This document shows, piece after piece, positions 76 to 35,546 of a DNA stretch of 36,462 nucleotides. The DNA comes from a virus. The notes under the pieces were generated by a model. The model worked only from the letters and a program-made list of their open reading frames with translations, searched no databases and was not told where the DNA came from. Numbering within the stretch: position 1 is the stretch's first letter; each line of letters starts with the position of its first letter. A program made the position numbers and the translations under genes. The stretch spans positions 1 through 36,462 of IMG/VR virus record IMGVR_UViG_3300031227_003508; one strand, given 5' to 3'.

Positions 76-807
76 ATGAAGATGGATATTATGAAGGAAA
101 TCCAAAAAAGGGGGCAGCCGTACACGGCCCAAACTTTGTATAACACAATGCACGTCTCGCATATAGGGTATAGGCACAAGAACCAGGGGTTAGCAGTTGT
201 TTGTGACTGGCTTCATTTGTTACGAGACAAGAGGGGTGTGGTCCATGATCCGTGGACGGATAAGCCTATGACCATAATCGAGGTGGGCTGTGGCAATGGA
301 AAGCTCTGTGACTTTTTACGGAGTCTGGGCTTCCAAGTTGCTGGAATGGACATATTTGACAACAAAGTGGTTTACGATAGGTCGTGGTATTGCTTCGCAA
401 AACATGATTTAGCAGAAGTTCCTTATCCCTTTGATGACAAGAAGTTCGACTACTGTCTATGTTTCGATGTGCTGGAGCACTTGAAGGAAGAACACGTTGC
501 CCCTGCTTTACAAGAGATGGCACGAATAAGCAACGATGGTATTATTATCAAGGTGTCGTGTTCCGGGGAACCGCCACTTCATCTCACGGTCAAGACTCCT
601 GGTTGGTGGCTGGAGCAGCTCACAGAGAATTGCCCCGACTATTCATGGCAACTGCTCCGGAACTTCGAGCGAATCGCAAAGGAGGATGGTCCTATGATGA
701 GATCACAAAAGACGTTCTCGGATGTCCGTCCCCTCCCCGATGGTTATGTGCAGACCTTTGCTCCTCTTTTTTTTGGCAAGAGAGGAGCGATCGCTGATGA
801 AGGTTAA
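76..807 (+). CDS. SAM-dependent methyltransferase (class I)
   Basis: A 243-residue class I (Rossmann) methyltransferase of the Methyltransf_11/25 type. Motif I is visible as IEVGCGNGK around residues 68-76, followed by the acidic residue of motif II (GMDIFD), and the FD...DVLEHL motif typical of this group around residues 124-136. The substrate cannot be read from the sequence. It is the first of four enzyme genes that run into the virion operon; its stop overlaps the next start by 11 nt, which suggests translational coupling. By context it may methylate a sugar or peptide product of the neighbouring enzymes. Start chosen at ATG 76 for the AAGGAG upstream. No target-recognition domain is seen, so a DNA methylase is unlikely. 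Confidence 0.85.
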   Translation: MKMDIMKEIQKRGQPYTAQTLYNTMHVSHIGYRHKNQGLAVVCDWLHLLRDKRGVVHDPWTDKPMTIIEVGCGNGKLCDFLRSLGFQVAGMDIFDNKVVYDRSWYCFAKHDLAEVPYPFDDKKFDYCLCFDVLEHLKEEHVAPALQEMARISNDGIIIKVSCSGEPPLHLTVKTPGWWLEQLTENCPDYSWQLLRNFERIAKEDGPMMRSQKTFSDVRPLPDGYVQTFAPLFFGKRGAIADEG

Positions 808-1861
808 GCTCTATATGACTGGTGGTGAGGAGCCGATAAGCGAGTATCCGCTTGGCCTGGGTTACCTGAAGTCGAACTGTTCGGGTGACATTACAATCGT
901 CAACAACAGGAAGGATCTCAAGGATTGCGATTTAATCGGCCTGAGTTCCACTGTGGGCGGTCTTAAAGAAGCGGTTGACATTGTCACCTCTACCGATATT
1001 CCCGTCGCTATCGGCGGACAGGGGACTATGTGGGATGGCCTGGCGGATTATCCGTTCAAGCACATAATCAATGGCGAAGGCGAAAAGGCATTGCAGTCCA
1101 TAATGGACGGTAATACACAACGTCTTGTACAATTTGAGAATATCAAGAATCTCGACACTCTCTGTTTTCCGGAAAGGGGGAGGTGCGGTGAAGAGGTCCC
1201 GATATTGACAAGTAGGGGTTGTCCGTTCAACTGTCACTTCTGTTCGTCTCAGAACTACTGGGGCAAGACCAGGTGGCACTCGGCTGAGTATTTTCTGAAC
1301 GAGGTTGACTTTGTCAGTAGGAGATACCCTGATTCTCACGTCCTATACATCATGGACGATCTGTTCATTGTCAACCTGCAACGGTTCAACAAGATATACG
1401 AAGAATGGATGATGAACGGTCTGAACAAGAGATTCGAGCTGAAAGGTTTTGTTAGGTCAAGGAGTATGACTATTGACATAGCCAGGAAGATGAAGGCTAT
1501 GGGATTCAGGTCTGTTCGGTTCGGAGCTGAGTCTGGTAGTGACAGGATGCTCAAGATGATCAATAAGCAGGAAACAGTAGCGGATCATCAGAGGTGTATA
1601 GATATATGTGTAGAGGTTGGCCTGAATGTATGTGCTTCTTTTATCCAGTATTTGCCGGGTGAGACCGTAACGGATAGGCAGCTCACAGGGTTGTTCAAGA
1701 AAAAGAATAATCAGGTGTTGTGTGTTTCTGGTAACTATAAGTTTCAGCCGTTTCCTGGAACCTTCTTCTATGACGGAAGCAGTCCGCTTGATGGTTCTAA
1801 AGACTGGAGAACCCGCGGAAAGGTCAATCCAAGACTTTTAGAAGAAGGAGCTACAAAATGA
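797..1861 (+). CDS. Radical SAM enzyme with B12-binding-like N-terminus
   Basis: A 354-residue radical SAM protein. The [4Fe-4S] ligands are C142, C146 and C149 in a CxxxCxxC motif (RGCPFNCHFC). The N-terminal ~130 residues resemble the Rossmann domain of the B12-binding radical SAM (Elp3/MiaB/NifB fold) group, with GLGYL and the INGEGE motif, but the cobalamin-ligand DxHxxG signature is not visible, so it may not bind B12. ESGSDRMLKMINK around residue 240 matches the conserved SAM-ribose region. An open frame extends upstream to 722, but AGAGGAG at 781-787 lies correctly before ATG 797. The stop overlaps the next start (ATGA). The protein ends soon after the barrel. Substrate unknown. Confidence 0.87.
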   Translation: MKVKLYMTGGEEPISEYPLGLGYLKSNCSGDITIVNNRKDLKDCDLIGLSSTVGGLKEAVDIVTSTDIPVAIGGQGTMWDGLADYPFKHIINGEGEKALQSIMDGNTQRLVQFENIKNLDTLCFPERGRCGEEVPILTSRGCPFNCHFCSSQNYWGKTRWHSAEYFLNEVDFVSRRYPDSHVLYIMDDLFIVNLQRFNKIYEEWMMNGLNKRFELKGFVRSRSMTIDIARKMKAMGFRSVRFGAESGSDRMLKMINKQETVADHQRCIDICVEVGLNVCASFIQYLPGETVTDRQLTGLFKKKNNQVLCVSGNYKFQPFPGTFFYDGSSPLDGSKDWRTRGKVNPRLLEEGATK

Positions 1862-3165
1862 AGATCGCAATCTGCACACTGACGGAACAAAGGGACAAGT
1901 GCATTGATAACATGCTGGCAGTGGAGTTGAGGAAATACGGACACGATGTTGTGATCCGTAGTTACATCCATGCAGCAAGAGAGTCTATCTGTTACGAGAA
2001 GCCGGACGCAGTGATTGTTCCAATGGTCGGCGGCGAGTACAAGATGGACACTATTAAGAAGTGCAAGGAGTGGGGGATCGAGGTTATTGTCCGGCGCGGT
2101 GAAGCTGGTATGGGATGGGAACAATTCAAAGACCTTGACGACAACCGCAAAAAACTTCATCTCGGTAACTGGGATTATGGTCCCTACGTTGACCTTGAGT
2201 TGGTGTGGGGTCGAGAGTTTGGGCAGATAATTGCAGGACATGGACACATGATGGCACATAGGGTTAAGGCTTGTGGTGCGTTTGCTTTTGATCCGTACTT
2301 CCAGGAGGACACAAACGTCTATCTTGATCGGAAGAAAACAATTCTCTTCGCCACGGGCTTCTCGACCGCTGATTGCCGGCCTGGTTATTGCGAGACTGGT
2401 TTGCCTGAAGGTTCAAGTTACCATACAGAGCTCCAGAAGATACACAGTGATGCAAGGGTGGCGTGGTTGGACGCTATTGCCAACCTTGTCGCGGATTATT
2501 CAGACGAGTATGATTTTGAGCTGAAGGTCCGTCCCGGTGAGTCTGCTTCGGTATATGCTGACAAAGTTCCTTCATGTGTCAAGATACACAAGGACGATGC
2601 TTCATCCTCTGAAGTATTGAGAAGCATTGACATTCTTGTGCATAGCGGATCAACACTGGCTATCGAGGCTCACCTGCTTGGTGTGCCGTCGTTTAACTTC
2701 TGCAATGTCAATCCGGATCCGTTGCTCTCCAAGGTAAGTCCGATGCTTAGCACTTATCCAGAGTTGGAGTTTAATCTCAACAGGGTCACTCTTGGGCGAT
2801 CTAATATCAACGAAGACGCTTTTAATCAGTTGCAGGACCATCTATACGGTCCGATCGACGGTAAGGCTTGCGAGCGAGCTGCTGGTTTTGTCCACGAACA
2901 CCTTGCGGGTAAAGAGATTGAGAACACTTCACCTATGACCTGGCCGAAAGAAGCTAAGTATTTCAAAGGTGGCAACATCCATCTTGAGAAGCAGGAAGGT
3001 GATTTCCGGTGGTCGTGTCCGTGTTGCAGAAATATCTTCTGGGGCGAGCAGGAAGCTACTTACAATTGTCCTTATTGCAATATGAAAATAGACAGGACGA
3101 CTGTAAAACCCGGTGACAAAGCACCGTCACGAAAAAGAATGGTTACCGAGAGCGCTTTGAAGTAG
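1858..3165 (+). CDS. GT-B-like surface-polymer transferase with C-terminal zinc ribbon
   Basis: A 435-residue protein that starts within the ATGA overlap with the radical SAM gene, preceded by GAAGAAGGAG. The body resembles GT-B glycosyl/glycerophosphotransferases of surface-carbohydrate synthesis: an N-terminal half with IVPMVGGEY, then KVRPGES and the donor-binding-like DILVHSGSTLAIEA..GVPSF near residues 260-280. The last ~50 residues carry a separate zinc ribbon, C387-x2-C390 and C404-x2-C407, unusual for this family. No signal peptide or membrane segment, so it should act in the cytoplasm. The donor and acceptor are unknown. It could decorate a virion protein or host surface polymer; this is inference from context. 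A UDP-GlcNAc epimerase-like fold is the main alternative. Confidence 0.65.
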   Translation: MKIAICTLTEQRDKCIDNMLAVELRKYGHDVVIRSYIHAARESICYEKPDAVIVPMVGGEYKMDTIKKCKEWGIEVIVRRGEAGMGWEQFKDLDDNRKKLHLGNWDYGPYVDLELVWGREFGQIIAGHGHMMAHRVKACGAFAFDPYFQEDTNVYLDRKKTILFATGFSTADCRPGYCETGLPEGSSYHTELQKIHSDARVAWLDAIANLVADYSDEYDFELKVRPGESASVYADKVPSCVKIHKDDASSSEVLRSIDILVHSGSTLAIEAHLLGVPSFNFCNVNPDPLLSKVSPMLSTYPELEFNLNRVTLGRSNINEDAFNQLQDHLYGPIDGKACERAAGFVHEHLAGKEIENTSPMTWPKEAKYFKGGNIHLEKQEGDFRWSCPCCRNIFWGEQEATYNCPYCNMKIDRTTVKPGDKAPSRKRMVTESALK

Positions 3166-3180
3166 GAAGGAAGAAGGATT

Positions 3181-4035
3181 ATGACAAACAAGGAACGATT
3201 CAAAGCCAATATAAGGATGTTTGAGTTTGAACCACATTCCTACTGTAACCGGAAGTGTTGGTTCTGTCCGAACAACTTTATAGACCGAACAGGACCGGTC
3301 AAGTTCTTTGACGAAAAGATATACGCACAAGTCTTGGAAGATCTCCGGAGCATTGATTATTCAGAATGTATCGGCTTTGCTGGATGGTGTGAGCCTTTCA
3401 GTGAAGCGACTGCAACGATTCGCATGTTTCGTGATGCCAGAGACAAGTTGCCGAATGCAATGTTGTTTAGCAATACCAATACTGATTATTTGACAACAGA
3501 GATAGTTAAGGAAGCGGCAGACGCCGGGCTTGACCATCTCAAGTGCCAGCTATACTTTGGCAAGGATGAGGAATATACAAAAGATGCTATTTTGCAAAAG
3601 ATGATGTTCCTAAAGGCGAAGTTGCCTGGGATCGAGTTTAACGAAAGGGCTGAGGGGATCTGGTTTGCTTTGGTTGGCAACATGGTAGTTATCGCTTATT
3701 CCAAGGATTTTCACAAAGTTGGTAAGAACCGTTGTGATGTAAATGTCAGGAAACCAGTAGTAAGAACGGCTACTTGTTACGAAACACTGACGATGTTCGG
3801 CATCAATTACAACGGATGGGCAGTTCCATGTTGCAACATGCGAAGCGATTACCCTCCGCATAAAGAATTATTGCTTGGCAAGATGGACGATAAGCCTGGA
3901 AGGATTTTTGAAATGTATCAGGGCGTCTTGATACCAGAAACTCAATATCCTTGTTCGACGTGCATGGGCCTGCAGGGACATGCTAATATGAAAATGGTTC
4001 ACCATATAGTTTTGAAAGAGTTGAAGAATGGTTAA
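3181..4035 (+). CDS. Radical SAM enzyme with SPASM-like C-terminus
   Basis: A 284-residue radical SAM protein. The cluster cysteines are C22, C26 and C29 (CNRKCWFC). The C-terminal third has further Cys groups, TCYETLTMFGIN..GWAVPCCN and YPCSTCMG, in the order expected of SPASM/twitch auxiliary-cluster domains, which occur in peptide-modifying and sulfatase-maturing enzymes. A purine-rich GGAAGGAAGAAGGATT precedes ATG 3181. It is the fourth enzyme of the cassette, and its stop overlaps the adaptor gene start by 8 nt, so it is transcribed with the virion genes. No short precursor peptide gene was seen beside it, so a RiPP role is not supported; the substrate could be a virion protein or a sugar. 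Confidence 0.83.
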   Translation: MTNKERFKANIRMFEFEPHSYCNRKCWFCPNNFIDRTGPVKFFDEKIYAQVLEDLRSIDYSECIGFAGWCEPFSEATATIRMFRDARDKLPNAMLFSNTNTDYLTTEIVKEAADAGLDHLKCQLYFGKDEEYTKDAILQKMMFLKAKLPGIEFNERAEGIWFALVGNMVVIAYSKDFHKVGKNRCDVNVRKPVVRTATCYETLTMFGINYNGWAVPCCNMRSDYPPHKELLLGKMDDKPGRIFEMYQGVLIPETQYPCSTCMGLQGHANMKMVHHIVLKELKNG

Positions 4036-4939
4036 TTCTACCGGAGCTGCTCTGATCACCACGATCAGGCTCAGGTGTGCGAGGCAGAACGACACTGTCC
4101 TGATTACCGAAGCCTTCGTGCTTGCCGCACTGAACGAGGCTCAGATACACATTGTCCGGAAGTCACCGAGGATCGTCGGTCTCGACAGCAGTGATGCTAC
4201 CACCTACCGGATTGACAGGTGGGTCACCACCGCGATTGCCGTCACTGTGGCTGTTAGGGCCTCGACGGGTATTGTGACGCTTACGGCAGCAGGACATGGC
4301 CTTGAGGTGGGTGACATCGCCTCTGTTGTCGATGTCAATAACGATACCAGCTTCAATGGTACTTTCGAGATATTGTCCGTTGCCACTAACGATGTTACCT
4401 ACTTCTCGAATCTCGATGCGGATGATGGTATCGGTGCGACATTCGGAACGATTGCCAAGTCGGCAGCGAAGGCGAAGATCGACATCAGTACACTGGACCC
4501 GGCCCATATTGGTGGGGTCTGGATACTGAACGAATCTTCGACAAACCAGCGGGGGTTGAAGTACCGGGAGCTTTCCGACTTCCGGAGACGATACATACCA
4601 GTTGCCGAGATGCCACCAGCTGAACCACTGGAGTACACAAGGCAGGGCAGTGACATTCTTCTCAGTTCCCCGGTGAGCAGGGATTACCAAGGGCTGAGGT
4701 ACAGGATCGACTATACCGCTTGGGCGACTGCCTTGCTTAATGATACCGTTGCGTCTGTGCTTCCTAATTCTGACAAGGGGCTGATCCTCTTCGCTCTGGC
4801 TGAGATATACGATGAGATTGCATTGTCGGTACCGAGGTTCGAGAGCAAGGCCCTCAAGACCCGGGCGTTGTTCAATCAATGGCTGGGTGAGTATGCGGAT
4901 TACCAGGAAATGTTAATTGAAGAATTGTATGGAGAATGA
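4028..4939 (+). CDS. Head-tail adaptor / connector protein (gp6/gp11-like)
   Basis: A 303-residue protein whose order and features fit a podovirus head-tail adaptor. The N-terminus has helices as in gp6-type adaptors (ITEAFVLAALNEAQIHIVRKSPRI). A middle insert of about 60 residues (GHGLEVGDIASV...FNGTFEIL..T) is the beta-sandwich motif common in phage tail proteins, and a C-terminal helix follows (LALAEIYDEIALSVPRFESKAL). In the virion it would sit under the portal and contact the nozzle. The gene starts inside the end of the radical SAM gene, with AAAGAG upstream. The role rests on pattern and gene order; the portal gene expected upstream is not in the window. Confidence 0.65.
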   Translation: MVNSTGAALITTIRLRCARQNDTVLITEAFVLAALNEAQIHIVRKSPRIVGLDSSDATTYRIDRWVTTAIAVTVAVRASTGIVTLTAAGHGLEVGDIASVVDVNNDTSFNGTFEILSVATNDVTYFSNLDADDGIGATFGTIAKSAAKAKIDISTLDPAHIGGVWILNESSTNQRGLKYRELSDFRRRYIPVAEMPPAEPLEYTRQGSDILLSSPVSRDYQGLRYRIDYTAWATALLNDTVASVLPNSDKGLILFALAEIYDEIALSVPRFESKALKTRALFNQWLGEYADYQEMLIEELYGE

Positions 4940-5259: not shown

Positions 5260-6322
5260 AAAGTCAATAAAAATGCTAATACTGTTTGTTGCCGTAGTTT
5301 TCTGTTTAGGTGCTGCCACAACCCATGATCCTTGGGATGGTACCGTTTGGGTTGTCACGTCCCCGAACGATGAGGCGTTGGTCGGCAACACTTACAAGGA
5401 GATATATGATCTTCGTAAGGGTGTGGCACTTCGCATAAACAAGGAACATGAGACTCTTGCAACTACGTCTGCCGGTGGTGTCCACCTGCAGGGGTCGGCC
5501 AGGGCGTTCTTCCAAGACGCAGCGCCGACTACCCAGATTGATGGTACTGCATGGGACACTGGCGACTTGGGAAGTTTCTGGTTTGACTCAAACGCTACTA
5601 TTGACAATCAATTTAATGTTTTGACGAACCATGTAAGTACGGGAACATGGACGCCTATATCCACAGAGATCATAGCGGTGTTGCTTGCCGCGAATCGACA
5701 GTTTGCTGGTACCCTGGGCGTCACAGGACTTGCAACATTCACGGCAGGCATACTTTCCAACGATGATATTACGCTTGGTGCAGGTGACGATCTGGTGGGA
5801 TCTGCTACTTCAGATATATTGATAAACACTGACAAGTTCACTGTGGCAGGTGCAACGGGGAATACGGTGGTTGCGGGGACACTTGACGTAGCCGGTAATA
5901 TCGATCCTACTTCTTACGAAACTACAAATGGCGGTTTTATCGATGATAACGCTATGGGAGCAACTGCAACCGCAACTGTTGTCGCTAGCGCAGAGAGCAT
6001 TAAGGCTTATGTAGATGCTTCAATACCAGCCAGTGCTTTTGTTGCTAAAGGTTGGGGATTTATTACGCACCCTACAACGATAACGGCGGGGTCAAATATA
6101 ACAAGCGTATCAAATGACGGTACTGGAATATATACAGTAACTTGGGCTACTGATTTCGGAAGTGTAAATTACGCAGTCCTTGTTACACCAACAGGAGCAA
6201 CACACAGAACACCCATGATAACAGCGCAGGATGCCGGAACAGTTACAATTTTATTTGAAAGTACTGACAATGCTGCTGCCGATGTTACTGCTTTTAATAT
6301 CGTAGCGTTTGGAGCACAATAA
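5249..6322 (+). CDS. Fibre-like structural protein with an export-type N-terminus
   Basis: A 357-residue protein beginning with GTG, 7 nt after AAGGAG at 5236-5241. Residues 1-23 look like a Sec signal peptide (KIKKSIK, a hydrophobic run, then GAATT). The rest is Gly/Thr/Ala-rich and low in charge, as in trimeric fibre or head-decoration proteins: short beta repeats (LGVTGLATFTAG.., TLDVAGNI..), then a C-terminal domain (AKGWGFITHP to the end) of a type seen at the ends of phage fibre and appendage proteins. Host-receptor binding or tail decoration is likely. The signal-like start is unusual for a virion protein and may mean it is exported, or that the hydrophobic end is a virion anchor. Confidence 0.65.
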   Translation: MKIKKSIKMLILFVAVVFCLGAATTHDPWDGTVWVVTSPNDEALVGNTYKEIYDLRKGVALRINKEHETLATTSAGGVHLQGSARAFFQDAAPTTQIDGTAWDTGDLGSFWFDSNATIDNQFNVLTNHVSTGTWTPISTEIIAVLLAANRQFAGTLGVTGLATFTAGILSNDDITLGAGDDLVGSATSDILINTDKFTVAGATGNTVVAGTLDVAGNIDPTSYETTNGGFIDDNAMGATATATVVASAESIKAYVDASIPASAFVAKGWGFITHPTTITAGSNITSVSNDGTGIYTVTWATDFGSVNYAVLVTPTGATHRTPMITAQDAGTVTILFESTDNAAADVTAFNIVAFGAQ

Positions 6323-6326
6323 AATA

Positions 6327-8021
6327 ATGCCTGACATTCTAATAAGACAAGTGGATCAGGGCTTCGATGCTTCAATAAAGGACGCTGCCGAACTGCCGAG
6401 AGGTTCAGCCGCCGATGGCAGCCAGAACGTGTTATACTCTCGCGGAACAATCAAGACGCCCTTTGGTTTCGGCAAGGTTGGTACTCAGCTTGACAGCGGT
6501 AATGATGTTTTGAAGTTGGGCTTCTTCTCTGAGCTTGATAAGACACAGCACTTCCTCGCCGTTACCAAGAACAAGCTTTACGACTATAATCAGAATGGGG
6601 CCGCATGGGACGAAAAAACACAGAGCTACGCAACCACGGCTGTCGATTTCGGTGGTAGTATTGATTCCCCGGTGAGTATCGCCTCTGTCCTGCATACAGA
6701 TGGGCTGTTATTGAATGGAAGTGGTGACGCGTGGTACCATCACGTCGTTATCTGTCCGGGTAATGACTTGCCGGCCCAGAGGTGGGCCGGCAAGTACGAG
6801 GTTGATTTCGCTGATCTGGTGGGCGCGGATGATTACCACACAGTCGGCAGCAGTTATACAACGCATCACGCCTTACAAGTTGGTGCGTTCTTCAATCGAC
6901 TGCTCTTAATAAATCCCAAGGAGTCTGACGCCTCTGACAATATGGTCAACAACAATCAGCGTATCCGATGGCCGCAAGCTGGCAAACTTGAGATATGGAA
7001 AGGGACGGGGTCTGGTTATATTGACCTGCTGGATACCGGAGGACATAACGTATGGGGGGCTTTGCTCGGAACGCAGTGGATTCAATACCAGAATAATTCT
7101 ATATGGTCCCTTACCCATGTTGGCGGGACAAGAGTATTCGAGCCCGATACTGAAATGCCTGACCTGGGTCTATTAACCCCCCACCTTCTTTATTCCAAGA
7201 ACAATGTCCATTACTTTGTTGGCAACGATTACAATGTTTACGCATATTCTGGCGGATCGAACATCCAGCGAATATCCAAGAACATTGATGCCTATCTTCG
7301 CAGAGACCTTGATCCGGCGTATGCTAAGCGGAGTTGGATACAGATGGGAGCTGAGGACTCACGGCTTTGGATATTCATCGTTCCGAACGGCAAGACTTAC
7401 GTTACCCAAGCCTATGCCATCGACATGCTCACCGGCAAATGGATGAAGCGTGACTATACTCACAAGTGGGCTACCGGTGGAGTCAGTTGCGTTGGCCTGA
7501 TTGGTTCGAGCTTCTACGTTGCCGGCGAGACCTATGCCGAGGCTCTTGTAGTTGGCGAGTCTTATGCCGAACGAGCTGCACGGGCAGGGAATGAGACTTA
7601 CGCTTCTCTGCTTGAGGTTACTTTGACCAAAGAGCGTCTGGTACTCGGCGACTCTTCCGGGTATGTTTTTCAGTACGACAGCGACTTGACCGAGGATGAT
7701 ACCGTTGACATTCCAGCCAGGCACATTACTGAGATATACGATCTGACAAAGCCTCGATTCAACAAGATATGGCCCGGCTTCTTCGTGACAGCCAAAGGTT
7801 CTGGTCTGATAATCTCGTACCGGATCGGCAACTTCCAGACAACTACTACCGGCTGGACGGCGTTTTCTGAGCTTGCGTTGACCAGCGAGTATCTGGACTA
7901 TACGGTCCCGATCAATGACACAAGCAAGCGGATACAATTCAGGTTCACCAACGCTGACGGTGATGACTTCCAGATCAGCAACTATGGCTTGATGGACCCG
8001 ATACTGATGGAGGCGGTGTGA
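6327..8021 (+). CDS. Tail nozzle / tubular-type protein
   Basis: A 564-residue structural protein in the position of podovirus tail tubular protein B (T7 gp12-like) or the P22 gp10 stabilisation protein. It starts PDILIRQVDQGFD...LPRGSAADGSQN, the kind of opening seen in nozzle proteins, and then has repeated beta-rich blades (HYFVGNDYNVYAYSGG, RLWIFIVPNGKTYV, AIDMLTGKWMK) like a beta-propeller. A short ETYA/ESYAERA repeat lies around residues 405-435. The frame opens at a TTG at 6309, but ATG 6327 lies just after the upstream stop and is preferred; GGAG at 6311-6314 is 12 nt away, rather far. Role inferred from fold pattern and order. Confidence 0.65.
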   Translation: MPDILIRQVDQGFDASIKDAAELPRGSAADGSQNVLYSRGTIKTPFGFGKVGTQLDSGNDVLKLGFFSELDKTQHFLAVTKNKLYDYNQNGAAWDEKTQSYATTAVDFGGSIDSPVSIASVLHTDGLLLNGSGDAWYHHVVICPGNDLPAQRWAGKYEVDFADLVGADDYHTVGSSYTTHHALQVGAFFNRLLLINPKESDASDNMVNNNQRIRWPQAGKLEIWKGTGSGYIDLLDTGGHNVWGALLGTQWIQYQNNSIWSLTHVGGTRVFEPDTEMPDLGLLTPHLLYSKNNVHYFVGNDYNVYAYSGGSNIQRISKNIDAYLRRDLDPAYAKRSWIQMGAEDSRLWIFIVPNGKTYVTQAYAIDMLTGKWMKRDYTHKWATGGVSCVGLIGSSFYVAGETYAEALVVGESYAERAARAGNETYASLLEVTLTKERLVLGDSSGYVFQYDSDLTEDDTVDIPARHITEIYDLTKPRFNKIWPGFFVTAKGSGLIISYRIGNFQTTTTGWTAFSELALTSEYLDYTVPINDTSKRIQFRFTNADGDDFQISNYGLMDPILMEAV

Positions 8022-10708: not shown

Positions 10709-13700
10709 GTGCCTAACAGTTTCCTGGACGAGCTTCTGGAGAAACCGAAACCGGCGATTCAGCCTATTCAGCCGGTCCAACTCCCCCAGACTACCCAAGT
10801 TATCAACAGAAACAGCTATCTGGACGAGTTGCTGGGCAAACCTCCTGAGACGCTTCAGGATGCCCCACAGTCGTCGCAACTCCCGACCCCGCCAACCGCA
10901 CTCCCAGCAGGAGATCGTCTAGATTTGGCTACAATCCAGCGACCCACCGGCCAGATTCCGCCATTACAGACAGAAACCCAGCCGGGATTCGGTCAAAGAG
11001 CCGATGGGACGCCGAAAGGTCTTGGATTTTTCGGCAAATTACGTCTTGGAGGTCCATTACAGGATACGGATGGAGTTGCCACCGAATACTCGATAGGGGT
11101 TGACTTCGAAGGCGTAGAAACACAGATTCCGTCATTGGTTCCAACTTTGACCAAAGATGAACTCGATCTGATGACAAACGACATTATCCCGAACGGGAAA
11201 CAAGTACCAGATTCGATAATGCAAAAGGCCATTGAGTTTGCAAGAACACGGATAAGCCAAGGGAAAAGCCCGTTTGCGGAGGCAGGGGAGCAGCAAGAAA
11301 CGGGGATGCCGCCCGGTGGGGACATTTTCTTCGATTCTCCCGGGATAGCCGACCCCACCGATATTGAGGCAGGTCTTGACCTGGGTAAGCCTGTGGGACC
11401 GGACCTGCCGAGACGAGGGCCAGAAAGTATAGACGAAGTACGGCGAGCGATTCGAGGTGGGCCTTTCCCGCAATTTGGTATGCGGGAAAGGAAAGATGAA
11501 GGTGAATTGTCGAGCGATAAGGATTTTAACGGCTTCACAGGTCGGTTGTGGACAGGCGATGAACTGGCAAACGCCAGAGAGATTATAGCCAAAAACCCAG
11601 ACCAATTTGCCGAAGATGAGAAAATAGCACTTGAAAGGGCGGAGAATGCACTTCACCCGTTCAGGGCGTTGCCGACACAAATCGGTGTTACACTGTTAAA
11701 GGGAATCAGTAAGCCATTTGGATGGGGCGAAAAATTAAATCCTGGGATACAGCAAGCATTGAGCAAGGAGCTCCAGGCAATTCCGGGGATATATGGCGAG
11801 GCGGTTGGCGAGGCAGCAGCAGAGGGAGTTGACCTTTTTGTAAAATGGAAGTTTATATTCCCCGCACTTTTCAAGGCAGTCGGGTTGACCGGAAAAATAC
11901 CTTATGCGGCCAAAGCAGCCGCGGCACTCAAGAAGGCTACCGGACTTACAAAACTCGGAGAAGTATTGCCGCGAACAGCAAACGCAATCTCTACAACCGC
12001 AGCGGCATTTGCCAAAGGTGCCACAGTTGGAACTGTTTATACCGGGATAACCGCATACAACAACGGACTTTCATGGGAAGAAGCAAAGCCCTTAGTGCTC
12101 AGGGATGCGGTGATCATGGGGTCGATTGCAAGTGTTTTTAACGTCGCGTCGAAGATTGATACGCAGGTATATGTAAGAAAACTCCGAATGGAGATGATAA
12201 AAGCTAATAACCAGAAATACGCACAGAAGCTCAGTCAGATTGAATCAACAATGCAGCCGGGCCCGCGGAGAGTTTCGACAGTAAAGGGGTTGGCGTCTCT
12301 AAAGAAAGTTGACCTGAAAGCCATAGACGGAATCGTATCAGAAGTTGAATCGACACTTACAGGGATCAAGGCGGGGAAGCTTTACAAAACTGGACAGGAA
12401 CAATTTGAATCACCAGTAAAGGCCGCACAGAGATTTATCGAGAGCGGGACCAGACCAACCGCAGCGGTCAAAGGTGTAAAAGAACTTGAAGTGGGAATTG
12501 GCAGGGGTAAGAAATCGATCATATCCGAAAGCCGGATTGGAGAGATTATAGAATCGGCCAGGCAATCGACAAAAGCGTTTAAGCGGGAACTGCAATTTGG
12601 CACAAGGGGTGAAGAAGTTATGTTGGCTGTTGTCAAGATAGGAGATCAGACTTTCGAGGGACCAAGCCACGGCCAAGCTGTTCAGAAAGCCATTGATGCT
12701 GGTGTTGCTGAATTTACCGACAAAGGAACATTAAAAAAGGTTGGCGAACCTGATGCCGAGGTCGATAGTGGATTATTCAAAACCTCCACAGGAAGAATTG
12801 TAGATAGACTTGGTGCTCGTAAGATTTCCGGAAAGATGTTTGCAGAGGCAATAAAAACCATACCAGCAGAGGAAAAACCAGTCGCGGTGGCAGAGGGGAA
12901 AGTAGAGATAACAAAACCACAACAGGAAGCCGCAAAGGTCGAAGCTAAGATTCCAGGCGGCGAGGTCGATGTCAAGCCAGGACCGGCCAAAACACTCAAA
13001 ACGATAGAGGAAGAAGGCAAACAGGAAGCCGACACAACCGTTGTAGTGCCGCGGTCGGTTCCACTCCGGAAGATAATTCCGGCAAAAGCAAAAAAGAAAA
13101 CTGCTCCATCGCTGGAAACCAAAGGCGAACTATTCACTTATGGAGATCTCGGAGGTGGTATCGGGATTAAGGGCAAAAAACTATTTAACATACACACCCA
13201 GAAACAACTCATGGAGTTACCAAGTACAGTGTCAGCAAGAAAAGCTGCTACTGTGATAAAAGAATCAGGCATAGACCTCAAGCAAGGTGACGAGGAGGTT
13301 GCTAAACAATGGGAAGCGTTTCTGAAAGACAACAATGTCGAGAGAAACAAAGATGCTATTGTTGATTTTCTCACCGGCAGGGGTAAAGAATTGGCACCTG
13401 TGGATTATTACCAAGCATTTGACCAGGAGGCACTTGGAAAGATAGATCGTTGGCCCGCGAAGGCAGTGGGGATCATTCAGGGCCGACTGAACAATTTTGC
13501 ACGGATTGTCCCTGAGTTCACTCTCAATCCAACCTTTGCCTTTGATAAAGAATCTTCAATGTTGGTGTTCAAGGATAAGTATAAATACAGATTTACTCCA
13601 CAGCATTTTGGTTTAAGTGATAAAAATCTGAAAGACGGTCAAACCATAAGATTCGATTTGGAATCATTTGAAATCAAACCAGCAAAAAAGAAGGCCTTGA

Positions 13701-16700
13701 AAACGGCAGAGGCATTTCTTGGCAAGGGTGTAAGGCCCATAAAGGGCAAAACTACAAAGGTAATAGTTAAGGAAAAGACCGAAGCACAACAAAAGAAAAT
13801 CAGGGATGTCGAGATAAAACAATCAAAGTTTAGACAAAGGCTTAGGGAACTCAAAGATGTTCCAGATGGAGCCCATGTTGATGCTGATGATATAAAAGGG
13901 GCTGCTAGAGAAGGACGAATAGCCGGTCGAGACATTGAGGAAATAAAAAGCACGATCCAAGCAGCTCTAAAAGACAGTGCTACGCCAATGGATTTTATAG
14001 ATAGTGCCATAGAGGAGGCGTTGGAAACCAAAAAACCAGTTGCCAAGAAAGTAAAGAAAAAAGCAAAAGCAAAGAAGGTAGCAGAAAAAAAGGTTAAGCC
14101 AGGAGATAAACCGGAAAAACGTGTCATATCAACAGAGGCTTACGATGCAGCCAGAAAGAGGTTGCATGATCCAAACAGGCTGAAGTCCGGTATTAGCCCT
14201 CAAGACATGGCTGATTTTCTGACCATTGGCGCTTACCACCTCGAATCCGGGGTGAAGAAGTTCTCCGAATGGTCCAAGAAAATGATAAATGATTTGGGTG
14301 AAACAGTATCACCTTATTTGCAAGATGTGTGGGCACAGGTAAACCAGGATGTCACGGACAATGTCACTTCTGGTATGCGATCAATAACGGAACAGACTCC
14401 ACCGGAAGTACAGGAGTTCTTGTCCAAGACAAAAAGGCTTGCCCCATTGACGGTCACCAAGGCAACCCGGGACGCTGCGACACTGATGGATGCTTTCTTT
14501 GCCGAGCGTGACGAGCAGGAGTTCCGGTCGTTTGCCAGGACGTTCAATCTCCAGAACGATCTGAAGGAGGCGATGGGGAATGACCGACACAGTGGCTTCA
14601 AAGCTGAACATATCGAGATGGATATGGCAATGCAGGTCCATATCGACCTGAAGAACAACCCCGACCAGATCGAGAAGTATTACGACAAGGTGAATCCCAG
14701 GCAAAAGCGAATTACTGACCTCGCTCAGAACCTACCAGCTAAAGTAAAAACATTGGTTGACCAGATCATAGCGGCCAACAAGAAAATCGGACTAGAGGCT
14801 CTGGATGCCGGTATCATCAACAATGTCATGGACAACTACTCGATGCGGTTATGGGAAACTCCGAAAAGTGCCAGAAAGATGTATCGCAAATTCGGTACAA
14901 AGACTGCCAGGGCGAAACATCGGACGCTGAAAGGTATCCTGCATGGTTGGTCACTGGGCAAGGAGCTCCAGATCAAGGGGGCCACGAACGCTCACATGGT
15001 AATGTCGAGCCAGGTGGCGAATACCAAGGTTGACCGGCAACTCATTAAGACAGGTAAGCAGTGGGGATTACTGGGTAACCAAAGACTTGACGACTGGAAA
15101 CAGATCGAACACCCAAACTTCACGGACTGGAAATGGGCAGGCAAGGCAGAAGGAGCCAAGACTTACGGTAAGAACTTCTTCGTTACCAAAGACGGAAATC
15201 TGATGAAACGAGTAACGATGTACGCTGAGCCGAAGTTGGCAAAGCACTTGAACAGTGCTTTCGGAACATCAGTTCTCTACTCGATTCCCGGCGTCCGGAC
15301 CCTTACAGAGTACAATGCTATGCTCAAGCGGTGGGTACTATTTACCAGCCTCTTCCATCACCAGGCATATATCAGGTCATACGATCTAGGTGGTCGAACT
15401 GGATTCAAGAACCTCGGACCACGCAGGGCGTTTGTTGCTGGAAGGACGGCAATCGAGAACTTCGAACCAGACTTGATTCTTGGTGTACGACAAGGGTTGA
15501 CCCTGGGCAGGATACAGGATTACGACGAGAAGATACTCCGGGGCAAGAAGACTATCTGGGGTAAGATGGCTCGTAAGGTCAAGCCGGCAGGTGTCGCTAT
15601 AGATCAGATCAATAAGCTTCGGGATTGGAACGAACATCTCTTGTTCGCCAAGCTGGGGCCATTTCTCAAGGCCCAGGCATACCTGCTGGAGTACCGGGGT
15701 CTTATCAAGAAACACAAGAAAGCTATTCTCGCCGGCAGGATGGATATAGACGACGTTGCCAAGGAAGCAGCAGGTTTGGCAAACAATGACTTCGGTGGTC
15801 TGCATCTTCAACGAATAGGCAGGAACCCAACACTCCAGCATATCTTCCGGCTATTGGCTTTAGCCCCGGACTGGACCGAATCGAATGTACGATCCGCGGT
15901 GAAGGCGTTTAGGGGTGGACTTGGCGGAGAGGTTTATAGAGCATTTTGGGCAAGGATAGCATTGAAGGGGTTGACCTCATTAGTGGTCTTCAACTATCTG
16001 ATGGCGATGTTCGACGAAGACGATGAGGACACGTCCGGAGTCAATGAACGCTTTATCCGCAATTATAAGCGGGCATGGAAGAATGGGAAAACGCGATGGA
16101 TGGACGTTGACATTACTCCGCTGTATCGGGCTGTTGGCGGCAAGGCTAACAAGCAAAAGTATTTCTCAATCATTGGTCACTTCAAGGACCCGATTAAGTT
16201 TGTTGCGAGGGAAACAGTTAAGGAAGGGCCACTCAAGGGGGTTCCTGCCCCACTGAAAAGCCTGGCAAAGTCGGCGAAGTACAAGGGAAGCATTATTTCC
16301 AGAATCATCGCCGACGCATGGACCGGCAAGGACTGGGCAGGCAGAGAGTTTACGACTATGTCCGAGTTGATGGGCCTGGATGACAAAGGTGTCTATCAGC
16401 GATCTTCCAAGAAATACGGTTACAAGAAGGGAGATCCTAAAGGTGGCAAGTTAAAAGGTGAGTTGACTAAGTTCTCGCTGGGTGGCATGACGAAGCACTT
16501 GGGCATAACCCAGATACCGAGCTTCCTGTTGTATGAGTTTCAGACAAACACACCAATCCAGGTACAGAACGCGATCAGCTACCTGAAAGGCCAGATGGAC
16601 GGATTTGACGTAATCATTAAGAGCACGGGCACACACATCAGCTCGACGTGGGATCCGGCTGAGAACATAATAGATGGACTGTCACTGGAGCAGCTAAAAG

Positions 16701-16828
16701 AGTTACGAGGGCAATATGTATATGTGAATACTAACAGGCGACTCGGCCAAGTGCGGGGTAAACCAACAAAGGGTAATGAACGTATCGTAGAGGGAATTGA
16801 CAAAGCTATTAAGGAGTATAGCAGATGA
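10709..16828 (+). CDS. Giant internal virion protein (2039 residues)
   Basis: The largest gene, starting with GTG after GGGGAGG at 10693-10699. The first 45 residues hold two copies of an NSFLDELL/NSYLDELL motif. Residues ~110-190 contain a domain common in phage internal proteins (ATEYSIGV...IPSLVPTLTKDEL...AIEFARTRISQGKSPF). Hydrophobic helices follow near residues 370-470, then a Lys/Ala-rich linker (KKPVAKKVKKKAKAKK) and a C-terminal half with the LPD-like block LANNDFGGLHLQRI...LLALAPDWTESN seen in giant phage polyvalent proteins. It is probably ejected with the DNA to build a trans-envelope channel. No lytic transglycosylase motif was found. Codon choice shifts near 14.4 kb, suggesting a mosaic join. 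Confidence 0.78.
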   Translation: MPNSFLDELLEKPKPAIQPIQPVQLPQTTQVINRNSYLDELLGKPPETLQDAPQSSQLPTPPTALPAGDRLDLATIQRPTGQIPPLQTETQPGFGQRADGTPKGLGFFGKLRLGGPLQDTDGVATEYSIGVDFEGVETQIPSLVPTLTKDELDLMTNDIIPNGKQVPDSIMQKAIEFARTRISQGKSPFAEAGEQQETGMPPGGDIFFDSPGIADPTDIEAGLDLGKPVGPDLPRRGPESIDEVRRAIRGGPFPQFGMRERKDEGELSSDKDFNGFTGRLWTGDELANAREIIAKNPDQFAEDEKIALERAENALHPFRALPTQIGVTLLKGISKPFGWGEKLNPGIQQALSKELQAIPGIYGEAVGEAAAEGVDLFVKWKFIFPALFKAVGLTGKIPYAAKAAAALKKATGLTKLGEVLPRTANAISTTAAAFAKGATVGTVYTGITAYNNGLSWEEAKPLVLRDAVIMGSIASVFNVASKIDTQVYVRKLRMEMIKANNQKYAQKLSQIESTMQPGPRRVSTVKGLASLKKVDLKAIDGIVSEVESTLTGIKAGKLYKTGQEQFESPVKAAQRFIESGTRPTAAVKGVKELEVGIGRGKKSIISESRIGEIIESARQSTKAFKRELQFGTRGEEVMLAVVKIGDQTFEGPSHGQAVQKAIDAGVAEFTDKGTLKKVGEPDAEVDSGLFKTSTGRIVDRLGARKISGKMFAEAIKTIPAEEKPVAVAEGKVEITKPQQEAAKVEAKIPGGEVDVKPGPAKTLKTIEEEGKQEADTTVVVPRSVPLRKIIPAKAKKKTAPSLETKGELFTYGDLGGGIGIKGKKLFNIHTQKQLMELPSTVSARKAATVIKESGIDLKQGDEEVAKQWEAFLKDNNVERNKDAIVDFLTGRGKELAPVDYYQAFDQEALGKIDRWPAKAVGIIQGRLNNFARIVPEFTLNPTFAFDKESSMLVFKDKYKYRFTPQHFGLSDKNLKDGQTIRFDLESFEIKPAKKKALKTAEAFLGKGVRPIKGKTTKVIVKEKTEAQQKKIRDVEIKQSKFRQRLRELKDVPDGAHVDADDIKGAAREGRIAGRDIEEIKSTIQAALKDSATPMDFIDSAIEEALETKKPVAKKVKKKAKAKKVAEKKVKPGDKPEKRVISTEAYDAARKRLHDPNRLKSGISPQDMADFLTIGAYHLESGVKKFSEWSKKMINDLGETVSPYLQDVWAQVNQDVTDNVTSGMRSITEQTPPEVQEFLSKTKRLAPLTVTKATRDAATLMDAFFAERDEQEFRSFARTFNLQNDLKEAMGNDRHSGFKAEHIEMDMAMQVHIDLKNNPDQIEKYYDKVNPRQKRITDLAQNLPAKVKTLVDQIIAANKKIGLEALDAGIINNVMDNYSMRLWETPKSARKMYRKFGTKTARAKHRTLKGILHGWSLGKELQIKGATNAHMVMSSQVANTKVDRQLIKTGKQWGLLGNQRLDDWKQIEHPNFTDWKWAGKAEGAKTYGKNFFVTKDGNLMKRVTMYAEPKLAKHLNSAFGTSVLYSIPGVRTLTEYNAMLKRWVLFTSLFHHQAYIRSYDLGGRTGFKNLGPRRAFVAGRTAIENFEPDLILGVRQGLTLGRIQDYDEKILRGKKTIWGKMARKVKPAGVAIDQINKLRDWNEHLLFAKLGPFLKAQAYLLEYRGLIKKHKKAILAGRMDIDDVAKEAAGLANNDFGGLHLQRIGRNPTLQHIFRLLALAPDWTESNVRSAVKAFRGGLGGEVYRAFWARIALKGLTSLVVFNYLMAMFDEDDEDTSGVNERFIRNYKRAWKNGKTRWMDVDITPLYRAVGGKANKQKYFSIIGHFKDPIKFVARETVKEGPLKGVPAPLKSLAKSAKYKGSIISRIIADAWTGKDWAGREFTTMSELMGLDDKGVYQRSSKKYGYKKGDPKGGKLKGELTKFSLGGMTKHLGITQIPSFLLYEFQTNTPIQVQNAISYLKGQMDGFDVIIKSTGTHISSTWDPAENIIDGLSLEQLKELRGQYVYVNTNRRLGQVRGKPTKGNERIVEGIDKAIKEYSR

Positions 16829-21202: not shown

Positions 21203-21333
21203 CCACCTTAATAGCACCGGGGACTTCAAGGAACGAATCCTGCTAAATCAGGACGAACAGATAGGAGGTGTTCTATGATACGGTAAGTCAATAGCTTATC
21301 TTGGGGACCGTTGAGAAACAGGCCCCACCTTAT
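21203..21333 (+). other. Gene-free stretch with hairpins upstream of the tRNA
   Basis: No protein gene. CCACCTTA followed by (A)TAGC and GGGG occurs at 21203-21222 and again at 21325-21340, the second copy leading into the tRNA. Predicted local structures are TCCTG/CAGGA (21238-21242 / 21249-21253), AGCACC/GGTGTT (21213-21218 / 21267-21272), and TGGGG-CC / GG-CCCCA (21302-21309 / 21321-21327). A 3-codon reading frame ATG ATA CGG TAA at 21275-21286 follows AGGAGG. It may be the remains of a second RNA gene or a leader; neither is proven. Confidence 0.35.
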
Positions 21334-21406
21334 AGCGGGGTAGAGCAATTGGCAGCTTGCATGGCTCATAACCATGAGGTTGGGGGTTCGAGTCCCTCCT
21401 CCGCTA
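21334..21406 (+). tRNA. tRNA-Met (anticodon CAT)
   Basis: A complete 73-nt cloverleaf: acceptor stem AGCGGGG / CTCCGCT (one G-T pair), D stem GAGC/GCTT with loop AATTGGCA, anticodon stem CATGG/CCATG with loop CTCATAA (anticodon CAT at 21367-21369), a 5-nt variable loop, T stem GGGGG/CCCTC with loop TTCGAGT, and discriminator A. The CCA end is not encoded. The first pair is A-T and there is no G-C-rich initiator anticodon stem, so it reads as an elongator Met tRNA; a tRNA-Ile2 with a modified C34 cannot be excluded from the sequence. Confidence 0.9.
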
Positions 21407-21439
21407 ATTTATTGTGCTGCGACCAAACAACTATGCCCG

Positions 21440-24514: not shown

Positions 24515-25120
24515 ATGAAAATAAACACCTACATCAAAAAAATCAAAGAATTAAGGGCTTGTGGTGCGGCGGTAAGGGCAACACTTGAGTACAAAACATC
24601 TCAAGAACTCTGGGGCGATTGCAATCGAGGCGACTGGATGTTATGGCTCATAGGCAAATTAAGCGGCGGACCTGGTAGTGAGAAACGAAAAAAGATGGTT
24701 TTAACGGCATGTAAGTGTGCCAGACTCGCACTAAAATATGTCCCAAAGGACGAAAAACGTCCCCTTGAAGCAATAGAGACCGCCGAGAATTGGGCAAGGG
24801 ACGAAGGGGCAACACTAAAACAGGTCAAGGCTGCTGCTGCTGCTGCTGCTGATGCTGCTGATGCTGCTGATGCTGCTGATGCTGCTGATGCTGCTGCTGC
24901 TGCTTATGCTGATGCTGCTGCTGCTGCTTATGCTGCTGCTGCTGCTTATGATGCTGCTGCTGCTGCTGCTGCTGATGCTGATGCTGCTGCTGCTGCTTAT
25001 GCTGCTGCTGCTGCTTATGCTGCTGCTACTGCTGCTGCTGCTCGACAAAAAACGTTGGCCAGGTGTGCGGACATTGTAAGAAAAGATTACCCTGAAGTAG
25101 ATTCGTTATTTGAGGGGTAA
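24515..25120 (+). CDS. Ala-rich triplet-repeat protein
   Basis: A 201-residue protein. The first ~105 residues look globular and helical (TYIKKIKELRACGAAVRATL, GDWMLWLIGKLSG, RKKMVLTACKCARLAL..VPKDEKRPLEAIETAENWA). Residues ~108-178 are almost only Ala with regular Asp or Tyr, from runs of GCT with GAT and TAT. The end (ARCADIVRKDYPEVDSLFEG) is folded again. This layout, a helical domain with a DAADAA insert, occurs in a group of immunity-like (Imm5-type) proteins; that name does not prove function. AAAGGAG precedes ATG 24515. The repeat should vary in length by slippage in steps of one codon. Confidence 0.65.
   Translation: MKINTYIKKIKELRACGAAVRATLEYKTSQELWGDCNRGDWMLWLIGKLSGGPGSEKRKKMVLTACKCARLALKYVPKDEKRPLEAIETAENWARDEGATLKQVKAAAAAAADAADAADAADAADAAAAAYADAAAAAYAAAAAYDAAAAAAADADAAAAAYAAAAAYAAATAAAARQKTLARCADIVRKDYPEVDSLFEG
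24834..25042 (+). repeat. GCT/GAT/TAT triplet repeat array
   Basis: About 70 consecutive triplets, nearly all GCT, with GAT or TAT every few units and one ACT. Longer sub-units such as GCTGCTGAT repeat several times. All changes keep the reading frame, so the array encodes a helical Ala spacer of variable length. Long open frames in the other five frames here are by-products of the repeat. Confidence 0.95.
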
Positions 25121-33153: not shown

Positions 33154-33690
33154 ATGGGAGAAGAAGATGAAAACAATAATCCCCGCCATGCAGGGGGACA
33201 ACCCACCAAGTATCGCCCAGAGTACGTCGATATGGCGTATAAGTTTTGCCTCCTCAAAGCCACAGACAAGGACCTTGCTCGATTCTTCGAAGTTTGTGAG
33301 GCCACAGTCAATAACTGGAAGATCAACCACCCAGAGTTCTTAGAGGCCTTAAAAGCCGGCAAGGAGATTGCTGATTCCAAGGTAGCCCAAAGCCTTTATG
33401 ACCGGGCGACGGGCCTCTGTATTCCGGAGACCAAGGTACATTTTGACACTGACTCCGGAACATGGAAAACCAAGAACATCAAGAAGTATTATCCCCCGGA
33501 TACCGCAGCGGCTTTCATCTGGCTAAAGAATAGAGCCGGTTGGAGCGACAAGTCTGAGATATTGCAGACAGTCGAAACCCGGAAGGGACCACCTCTCACT
33601 GTCGAAGAGATACAGCGTCGGCTTGAAGCCGAGAAGGAGGCTGGCACTGGATTAGACATGCGTTCGATCGAGGGGGGCTCGGGATCATGA
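33154..33690 (+). CDS. terS: Terminase small subunit
   Basis: A 178-residue TerS. The N-terminal helix-turn-helix of phage TerS is clear: QPTKYRPEYVDMAYKFC..KATDKDLARFFEVCEATVNNWKINHPEFLEALKAGKE, which binds packaging-initiation DNA. AQSLYDRATG and YYPPDTAAAFIWLKNRAGW are conserved in this TerS group. The C-terminus is a charged helix for contacts with the large subunit. The stop overlaps the large subunit start by 4 nt. The ATG at 33154 is the only good start; it has a weak AAGGG. Confidence 0.9.
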   Translation: MGEEDENNNPRHAGGQPTKYRPEYVDMAYKFCLLKATDKDLARFFEVCEATVNNWKINHPEFLEALKAGKEIADSKVAQSLYDRATGLCIPETKVHFDTDSGTWKTKNIKKYYPPDTAAAFIWLKNRAGWSDKSEILQTVETRKGPPLTVEEIQRRLEAEKEAGTGLDMRSIEGGSGS

Positions 33691-35546
33691 CAACCACTAC
33701 GACCAGGCCGGCCACAGCTAAAGAGATCGAGATCTACACCGAAGGCTCCCTGGGCTGGCAAGCCGAGAACCTAATGATTATCAACAAAGAATCTGAGCTG
33801 GTACCTTTGGCTCACAACATCGCCCAGCTCAAGGTCAACCAGGCGATGAAGCTTCAGATCAAGCATGGCCTTCCTGTTCAGCTCTTGATATATAAAGCCA
33901 GGCAGGAAGGGATAAGCACTTACATCGAAGCGTGTCTATTCGAAAAGATCAACCGTAACGAGAATTATCATGCGTGTGTGGTGTCGGTTGACGATGACGC
34001 GACGGCCAAGGTATTCCGGATGTGTGAAACATTCCAGTCTGAGATACCGGTAAAGATACCAACCGACCGGGCCAGCGCCAAAGAAATCCGGTACAAAGCT
34101 CCACACCGGTCCTCGATGCTTTGTCAGACTGCCGGCAAGAAAGTGCTTGGCCGGGGTGGAACAACCAAGGGCGTTCATGCCACCGAGGTCTGCTTCTGGG
34201 CCAATGCTGAACGGCAGCTATTGTCACTATCCCAGGAGGTACCTGATCTCCCGGATACGATGATGGTCCTGGAAACAACAGCCAATGGCACTGGGAATGT
34301 ATTCTCTCGGCGATACTGGGCTGCGGTGACACGGTTGCGGGATCTGTATAAACGTGACGCACAGGGTAACAAGGTGATTGACCCGACCGTGCTCCGGGGC
34401 GACCTTCCTATCTTTCTGAGTTGGCAGGACTTCCCGGAGTACCAGACAGAGCTGCCTCTGGGATCTAACGATCATGTGCCTGGCATGAATGAGCAGATGC
34501 GTGACTATGTCCGAGAAGGTTTGGGGATGGGCATTACGTTGTCTCCGGAACAGATATACTTCGCATTGCTCAAGGTCCAGAACAAGTGTGGAGGTGATAT
34601 TGATCTGTTCAAGCAAGAGTATCCGCGAACGGCCAGGGAGGCTGAGCTTGCTACTGGGCGTATGGTGTTCAGGGCCGAGTGGCTCGATGCTATGGAGGTA
34701 AACTGTAAGCCGCCTATTGCCAACATAGAGTTTTACAGGGACGGTGGCGTCGCTACCAAGGTTGATGGATACGCCAAACTTGTCGGCGGTGTTGTCAAGT
34801 ACCGCGAGACAAGCCGACGCAATAACTGTTGGAGTGTGTGGCGATGGCCGGACGGGAACCACAGCTATGTGGGTTTTGGTGACGTGGCGGAGGGAGTGCT
34901 GTCCGATCCGGGCAATGAGAAGTCTGCTTCGGATAGATCTGTGGCCGGGTTGATGGACAGGGACCGACACGATGTTCCGATAGTCTATTATGGCCGGCCA
35001 GACACTATCGAGTACGCCGATCAGTTCATTCTGGCTTGTGAGTATTACAACATGGCATGGGCCTCACCGGAGATGAACAGTATCGGTCAAAGTGTGCTTG
35101 ATGCGTTCAAACGTGCTGACTACCCGTACATCTATTGCCGGGAGAAGAGGGAGGATGAGGTTGTCCGGGAGGATTCCAAAAAGCTCGGGTGGAAGACGAC
35201 GATAGCAACCCGCAAGCCGATGATCGCTGATCTGGTGCAGGTAGCCAAAGACAACGAGATCATGGTCTATGATATCCGGGTGATTGAGGAGATGAGGACG
35301 TTTATCTGGAACTCACAAGGTAAGCCAGGGGCGAATAAGGGCCAGCACGATGATTGTGTAATTATGTTGGCTGGGTTGATCCAGCTCCATCAGAGGTGCC
35401 CATTCAACGACGATCTGAGCCTGCTGGATGAGAAGCCGGCCAAGAAAGCGAGCTTCGCCGTTGCCGGCCAGAGCGGTGACGATGATGATGAGATGGACGG
35501 TGACAACGATGACTTAACGTATTCTGATATGGACGAGTTTGAATAG
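33687..35546 (+). CDS. terL: Terminase large subunit
   Basis: A 619-residue TerL. The ATPase half has a noncanonical Walker A, KARQEGIST (residues 70-78), and a Walker B region GVHATEVCFW, then VLETTANG (coupling motif). The nuclease half includes VGFGDVAEG and, near the end, NKGQHDDCVIMLAGL with acidic residues of the RNase H-like site. This protein drives DNA into the head and cuts it. The C-terminus ends in an acidic tail (DDDDEMDGDNDD). The strain of TerL would tell headful from cos packaging, which I cannot decide here. Confidence 0.93.
   Translation: MTTTTTRPATAKEIEIYTEGSLGWQAENLMIINKESELVPLAHNIAQLKVNQAMKLQIKHGLPVQLLIYKARQEGISTYIEACLFEKINRNENYHACVVSVDDDATAKVFRMCETFQSEIPVKIPTDRASAKEIRYKAPHRSSMLCQTAGKKVLGRGGTTKGVHATEVCFWANAERQLLSLSQEVPDLPDTMMVLETTANGTGNVFSRRYWAAVTRLRDLYKRDAQGNKVIDPTVLRGDLPIFLSWQDFPEYQTELPLGSNDHVPGMNEQMRDYVREGLGMGITLSPEQIYFALLKVQNKCGGDIDLFKQEYPRTAREAELATGRMVFRAEWLDAMEVNCKPPIANIEFYRDGGVATKVDGYAKLVGGVVKYRETSRRNNCWSVWRWPDGNHSYVGFGDVAEGVLSDPGNEKSASDRSVAGLMDRDRHDVPIVYYGRPDTIEYADQFILACEYYNMAWASPEMNSIGQSVLDAFKRADYPYIYCREKREDEVVREDSKKLGWKTTIATRKPMIADLVQVAKDNEIMVYDIRVIEEMRTFIWNSQGKPGANKGQHDDCVIMLAGLIQLHQRCPFNDDLSLLDEKPAKKASFAVAGQSGDDDDEMDGDNDDLTYSDMDEFE

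Follow-up and report, generated by a model that had tools for sequence, protein, structure and literature searches.

The stretch of DNA analysed here, the window, is an entire IMG/VR record of 36,462 bases from an uncultured, short-tailed phage group, and is apparently a genome fragment. Four enzyme genes run directly into a head-tail adaptor-like gene. The features used below are the following.

76..807, plus strand: gene 1, class I SAM-dependent methyltransferase, core member of the cassette (Methyltransf_23, orthologues)
797..1861, plus strand: gene 2, probable B12-binding-type radical SAM enzyme, optional member (Radical_SAM, E 2e-17)
1858..3165, plus strand: gene 3, putative GT-B transferase with a C-terminal four-cysteine ribbon, core member (models below cut-off, low-confidence structure)
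3181..4035, plus strand: gene 4, predicted BtrN-like twitch radical SAM enzyme, optional member (profile, structure model, cysteine pattern)
4028..4939, plus strand: head-tail adaptor-like gene, boundary of the cassette (8-nt overlap, homologues)
6309..8021, plus strand: 570-aa virion structural protein, a marker for finding relatives (phrog_3287, E 1.6e-21)
33687..35546, plus strand: terminase large subunit, at the opposite end of the fragment (phrog_24361 terminase, E 3e-12)

All of these cassette genes lie head to tail, and the ORF coordinates place genes 1, 2, 3, 4 and the adaptor at spacings of -11, -4, +15 and -8 nt, exactly the overlapping layout claimed in the original prediction. Gene 2 has an alternative upstream start at 722, and the ATG at 797 fits both the overlap and the orthologues. 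A scan for promoter-like sites (16 versus 10.7 expected) and terminator-like sites (10 versus 7.0 expected) was not informative. The four cassette proteins contain no strong membrane or strongly hydrophobic segment. The adaptor gene has weak profile matches, and its probable identity comes from gene order and homology inside the phage group. Elsewhere in the window, a 2039-aa ORF (10709-16828) with a DarB-like antirestriction match (phrog_10089) and a weaker endolysin match is likely an internal virion protein, a tRNA-Met (CAT) gene (21333-21407) lies between the structural and replication regions, and the phrog_21347 protein encoded at 24515-25120 contains an extended Ala/Asp repeat.

Viral contigs scanned with the single proteins of genes 2, 3 and 4 gave no match, and two-sequence alignments were required to find relatives. 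The alignment that paired gene 4 with a homologue from bacteria recovered 59 virus loci, including L006 and L007 from one close relative, and a gene 3 alignment added L083, L085 and L086. The capsid-gene scan, which is independent of the cassette, added L088, L091 and L092, found others again, and left six relatives assessable (L084, L088, L083, L092, L086 and L085), L091 stopping too early. The relatives, few in number (seven sequences in the close group), are all metagenomic contigs, mainly fragments and none checked as a complete genome, and some share metagenomes. Terminase identities to the relatives are 49-62%. Among isolated phages, tblastn with genes 3 and 4 gave no match, and gene 2 matched only Streptomyces phage SF3, at 27.7% and in an unlike context. 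In the remoter annotated phages CRP-7 and ctuNt529 none of these genes is annotated at the equivalent place, where many of the encoded proteins are hypothetical.

In the relatives the cassette comes after the terminase, portal, scaffold and capsid genes, in that order, and the full series in L007 and L084 reads terminase, portal, scaffold, capsid, decoration protein, methyltransferase, GT, radical SAM gene 4 and adaptor. Homologues of the portal, scaffold and capsid genes were not found within the 36,462-base window and terminase genes stand at its right end; the record thus appears to break off inside the head-gene block. Since these genes are missing from the fragment, we infer the left neighbour of the cassette from the relatives. 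The methyltransferase and the GT-B transferase occupy the slot after the capsid and decoration genes and before the adaptor in all six assessable relatives, and adaptor homologues come after the cassette wherever the contig extends that far. The placement of the cassette within the virion operon, proposed from the window alone, is thus repeated across the group. Because the cassette genes recur in the same location in other viruses at 31-74% identity, the arrangement is not a chance one.

Gene 2 is present in three of the six (L083, L092 and L086) and absent from the L084, L085 and L088 records. Gene 4 is found in two of the five that can be judged for it (L084 and L088), L086 not being counted as it ends inside the GT gene. 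Only the window has both radical SAM genes together, and profile searches of the full relative records agree with this pattern. A single fixed unit of four genes was therefore rejected, and the four-enzyme set of the original prediction reduces to a methyltransferase and GT-B core with two optional radical SAM genes. Scattered homologues, which that prediction had named as counting against it, were found for gene 4, whose relatives are spread over polysaccharide loci; the core pair, however, keeps its place in the phage slot. The GT identities do not track those of the adaptor (against the window, L092 has 66% for the adaptor and 48% for the GT, L084 57% and 62%), which suggests, on small trees, that GT genes have been exchanged.

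Some of the related contigs carry further genes of interest. HNH-like ORFs are present in or beside the cassette (L083:9244-9864 and L093:12128-12556, minus strand; L108:3373-3936), those of L083 lying within it. Judged by eye and by the similarity between two L093 copies, they may be homing endonucleases through which cassette genes are moved or exchanged. In L088:18871-20224, a second methyltransferase-like gene and then a transferase-like gene, recognised by eye, follow the gene for the 570-aa virion protein; neither has a Pfam or NCBIfam family match at the thresholds used.

Gene 1 is well above the cut-off for Methyltransf_23 (54.1 bits, cut-off 27), and its orthologues in the six assessable relatives share 31-56% identity. 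Gene 2 has the CxxxCxxC radical SAM core motif at residues 142-149 and scores 64.1 bits against Radical_SAM (cut-off 29.5). Its best NCBIfam models are B12-rSAM families, with scores far under their cut-offs, and the B12-binding domain PF02310 is weakly detected in two of three gene 2 orthologues (best E 0.0029) and not in the window copy. Going by these best matches, gene 2 is probably a radical SAM enzyme of the B12 type; its chemistry is not readable from family scores. A relative at 53% identity is found in an unrelated virus, L102, where its neighbours are a GT-B-like gene, an APS-kinase-like gene, a second radical SAM gene, methyltransferases and a GT2-like gene. Two B12-type radical SAM genes stand in tandem there (L102:1952-4267), within this cluster of sugar-type genes.

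Gene 4 is, according to its alignment and structure model, a BtrN-like twitch radical SAM enzyme with a predicted dehydrogenase fold. It passes the Radical_SAM cut-off narrowly (31.1 versus 29.5 bits), and C22, C26 and C29 of the CxxxCxxC cluster motif are invariant in a 32-sequence alignment, as are C199, C217, C258 and C261 of the twitch domain, which align to BtrN. A SPASM enzyme had been predicted here, but the pattern is that of a four-cysteine twitch domain and not the seven-cysteine SPASM motif, with no further conserved cysteine after C258xxC261. BtrN is the best sequence match, found by the 32-sequence profile at E 2.6e-34. The structure model (pLDDT 86.8) matches BtrN with Z 22.3 over 231 residues (rmsd 3.1); the next structural match is BlsE (Z 14.2), and SpeY also matches (12.8). 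A viperin-type reading was also considered and rejected, as those matches score far under BtrN. BtrN and SpeY are alcohol dehydrogenases of aminocyclitol/aminoglycoside-type pathways. Gene 4 shares with them the fold, the CxxxCxxC motif and the four-cysteine twitch domain; it differs in having 20% identity and in lying outside any aminoglycoside cluster.

The virus relatives of gene 4 have GT61, GT4, GT2, GT15, 2OG oxygenase and sugar-pathway genes as neighbours, some of these names being read from the sequences. Bacterial relatives are located in surface-polysaccharide loci: in three genomes of the phylum that contains Gastranaerophilales the gene lies beside sugar genes (names again read from sequences), in one of them as a fusion to a GT2-like domain. 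A second recurrent virus arrangement of this radical SAM family was noted among L033, L035, L041 and similar loci: in many of them a GT61 gene comes after the gene 4 relative, with 2OG oxygenase-like or DUF6065 genes on the flanks.

Gene 3 matches BFO_1060 (84.8 bits, cut-off 200), whose tag we take to belong to Tannerella, and a TIGR04396 glycosyltransferase (77.3 bits, cut-off 125) over its full length, in both cases below the cut-off. A literature search of open-licence papers found none naming BFO_1060. The structure model is of low confidence (pLDDT 66.5), with GT-B enzymes including TarL, TagF and KpsC as top matches. Among PDB sequences gene 3 has no match beyond chance, the cysteine ribbon reaching Kti11 at E 0.6. 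The ribbon itself (C387, C390, C404 and C407) is invariant in nine orthologues. A search of 292 genomes from the phylum of the Gastranaerophilales MAG, run without a positive control, gave no match to the GT.

The 570-aa virion protein, used as a query, brought up the remoter relatives L107, L108 and L109, which have a gene 3 orthologue with 29-30% identity and the same four cysteines. This orthologue lies between the adaptor and tail-fibre genes; the adaptor side is visible in L108 and L109, and L107 begins inside the cluster. Its neighbours are genes for a class III aminotransferase, a PseH-like acetyltransferase, a FemAB-like protein and a cytidylyltransferase, and L108 and L109 also carry PseI-like (E 1e-99) and PseB-like (E 1e-115) genes, both just below curated cut-offs. 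No relatives of gene 1 or gene 4 were found in these three. Homologues of PseI and PseB, which belong to nonulosonic acid synthesis, were not found in the window or in its close relatives, most of them fragments, so a donor there must be host-derived or another sugar. The HP motif described for CMP-sugar transferases (PMC6388019) is also absent from the window group, which has VRPGE where L107-L109 have HPG, possibly indicating a shift in donor. A nonulosonic-acid-type donor is plausible at somewhat short of even odds, an estimate lowered because the window group has neither the synthesis genes nor the HP motif.

The GT-B enzyme GtfS of Tannerella forsythia (~440 aa), which is linked to pse genes and to methyltransferases, has experimental support as a transferase of nonulosonic acid in protein O-glycosylation (PMC6120980, PMC6388019). 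Gene 3 resembles GtfS by description, as a putative GT-B enzyme whose remote orthologues in L108 and L109 stand with PseI- and PseB-like genes. It differs in that its BFO_1060 score is below cut-off, the window phage has no synthesis genes, and the phage GT has the additional four-cysteine ribbon. Caution is needed in reading function from neighbours, since B. subtilis SpsB, which has a TagB domain, adjoins the legionaminic acid pathway yet is not needed for legionaminic acid transfer (PMC7439481).

The best explanation, to which we give a probability of about 0.5, is that a modular cassette among the late virion genes transfers and tailors an unusual, possibly nonulosonic-acid-like, sugar, with a virion protein or else the host surface as acceptor. 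A sugar-modifying role as such is well supported and very probable, and the proposal that the cassette makes or attaches an unusual group stands, with gene context pointing to a sugar as that group. We infer the enzyme activities, donor, acceptor and biological purpose as follows. The glycan cassette would be expressed together with the late virion genes. The GT-B transferase encoded by gene 3 would move an activated sugar, possibly a CMP-activated nonulosonic-acid-like one drawn from the host, to a phage-made or surface acceptor, and the gene 1 methyltransferase would O-methylate the transferred sugar. Gene 2 would most likely C-methylate the sugar or act on another unactivated carbon, and gene 4 would convert an alcohol to a ketone on it in the manner of BtrN. 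The purpose may be to change how the particle or the host is recognised.

A virion protein is favoured as the acceptor because the slot is fixed in the operon and the cassette proteins have no membrane segments. Modification of the host surface late in infection (O-antigen, capsule or another glycan), blocking re-adsorption or competing phages, is a serious rival, which we regard as doubtful. It is the usual reading for marine phages, and pelagimyophage glycosyltransferase genes accompanied by radical SAM cassettes have been so interpreted (PMC7029224). That host-recognition cluster, like the present one, has glycosyltransferases and variable radical SAM cassettes among virion genes; it differs in being a large hypervariable myophage region read as LPS modification, whereas the present short-tailed phages have a small slot at a fixed place, always holding the same two core genes. 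The Acinetobacter prophage genes epaA and epaB, whose products EpaA and EpaB alter the nonulosonic acid of the host capsule, are a further case of phage genes tailoring such a sugar (PMC12053666), and the polysaccharide loci of bacterial gene 4 relatives also fit a surface target. EpaA/EpaB, however, act in lysogens, and comprise a cytidylyltransferase/aldo-keto reductase plus an SDR without a radical SAM enzyme (PMC12053666). The position of the slot within the head/tail operon, the lack of strongly hydrophobic segments in all four proteins, and the little time that late expression would leave also weigh against a host-surface target.

Two other explanations are much less likely. Radical SAM enzymes could modify a peptide in a RiPP-like manner or mature a virion protein directly, and some of the families that match gene 2 and the gene 4 relatives in profile scans do act on peptides. 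Gene 4, however, has no SPASM cysteines and is nearest to BtrN, and both radical SAM genes are optional and adjoin a glycosyltransferase, making this very unlikely. DNA can be the target of phage glycosyltransferases, according to work cited in PMC12619734, and the transferase and tailoring enzymes might alter phage bases against restriction. Hypermodification of this kind is most improbable: the cassette is in the virion operon and the replication genes lie elsewhere, at 22-31 kb; sugar-pathway and polysaccharide genes accompany the relatives of genes 2, 3 and 4; and no base-modifying partner gene was seen.

Glycosylation of the virion itself is established in mycobacteriophages, where phage glycosyltransferases place glycans on capsid and tail-tube proteins (Freeman et al. 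2023, as cited in PMC12619734 and PMC11256854). The present cassette is similar in its phage-encoded glycosyltransferase. It differs in belonging to unrelated phages, in having radical SAM enzymes, which the cited passages do not report, and in being known from its genes. Our literature search, over open-licence papers, found no paper describing this arrangement. In its most specific form, the reading of the cassette as a sugar-transfer module would have this lineage coat its own particles with a radical-SAM-tailored, sialic-acid-like sugar, diversified by exchanging the GT and both radical SAM genes at one fixed site adjoining the capsid gene; this form is speculative and unlikely as it stands.

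The customary interpretation of sugar genes in phages is that they modify the host surface or DNA. The present group keeps two core genes at one place between capsid and adaptor, with radical SAM genes as optional additions and with remote relatives in which the transferase adjoins nonulosonic acid genes. Mass-shift predictions follow readily from the natural presence and absence of the radical SAM genes, and should a virion protein prove to be the acceptor, radical chemistry would serve to decorate virus particles.
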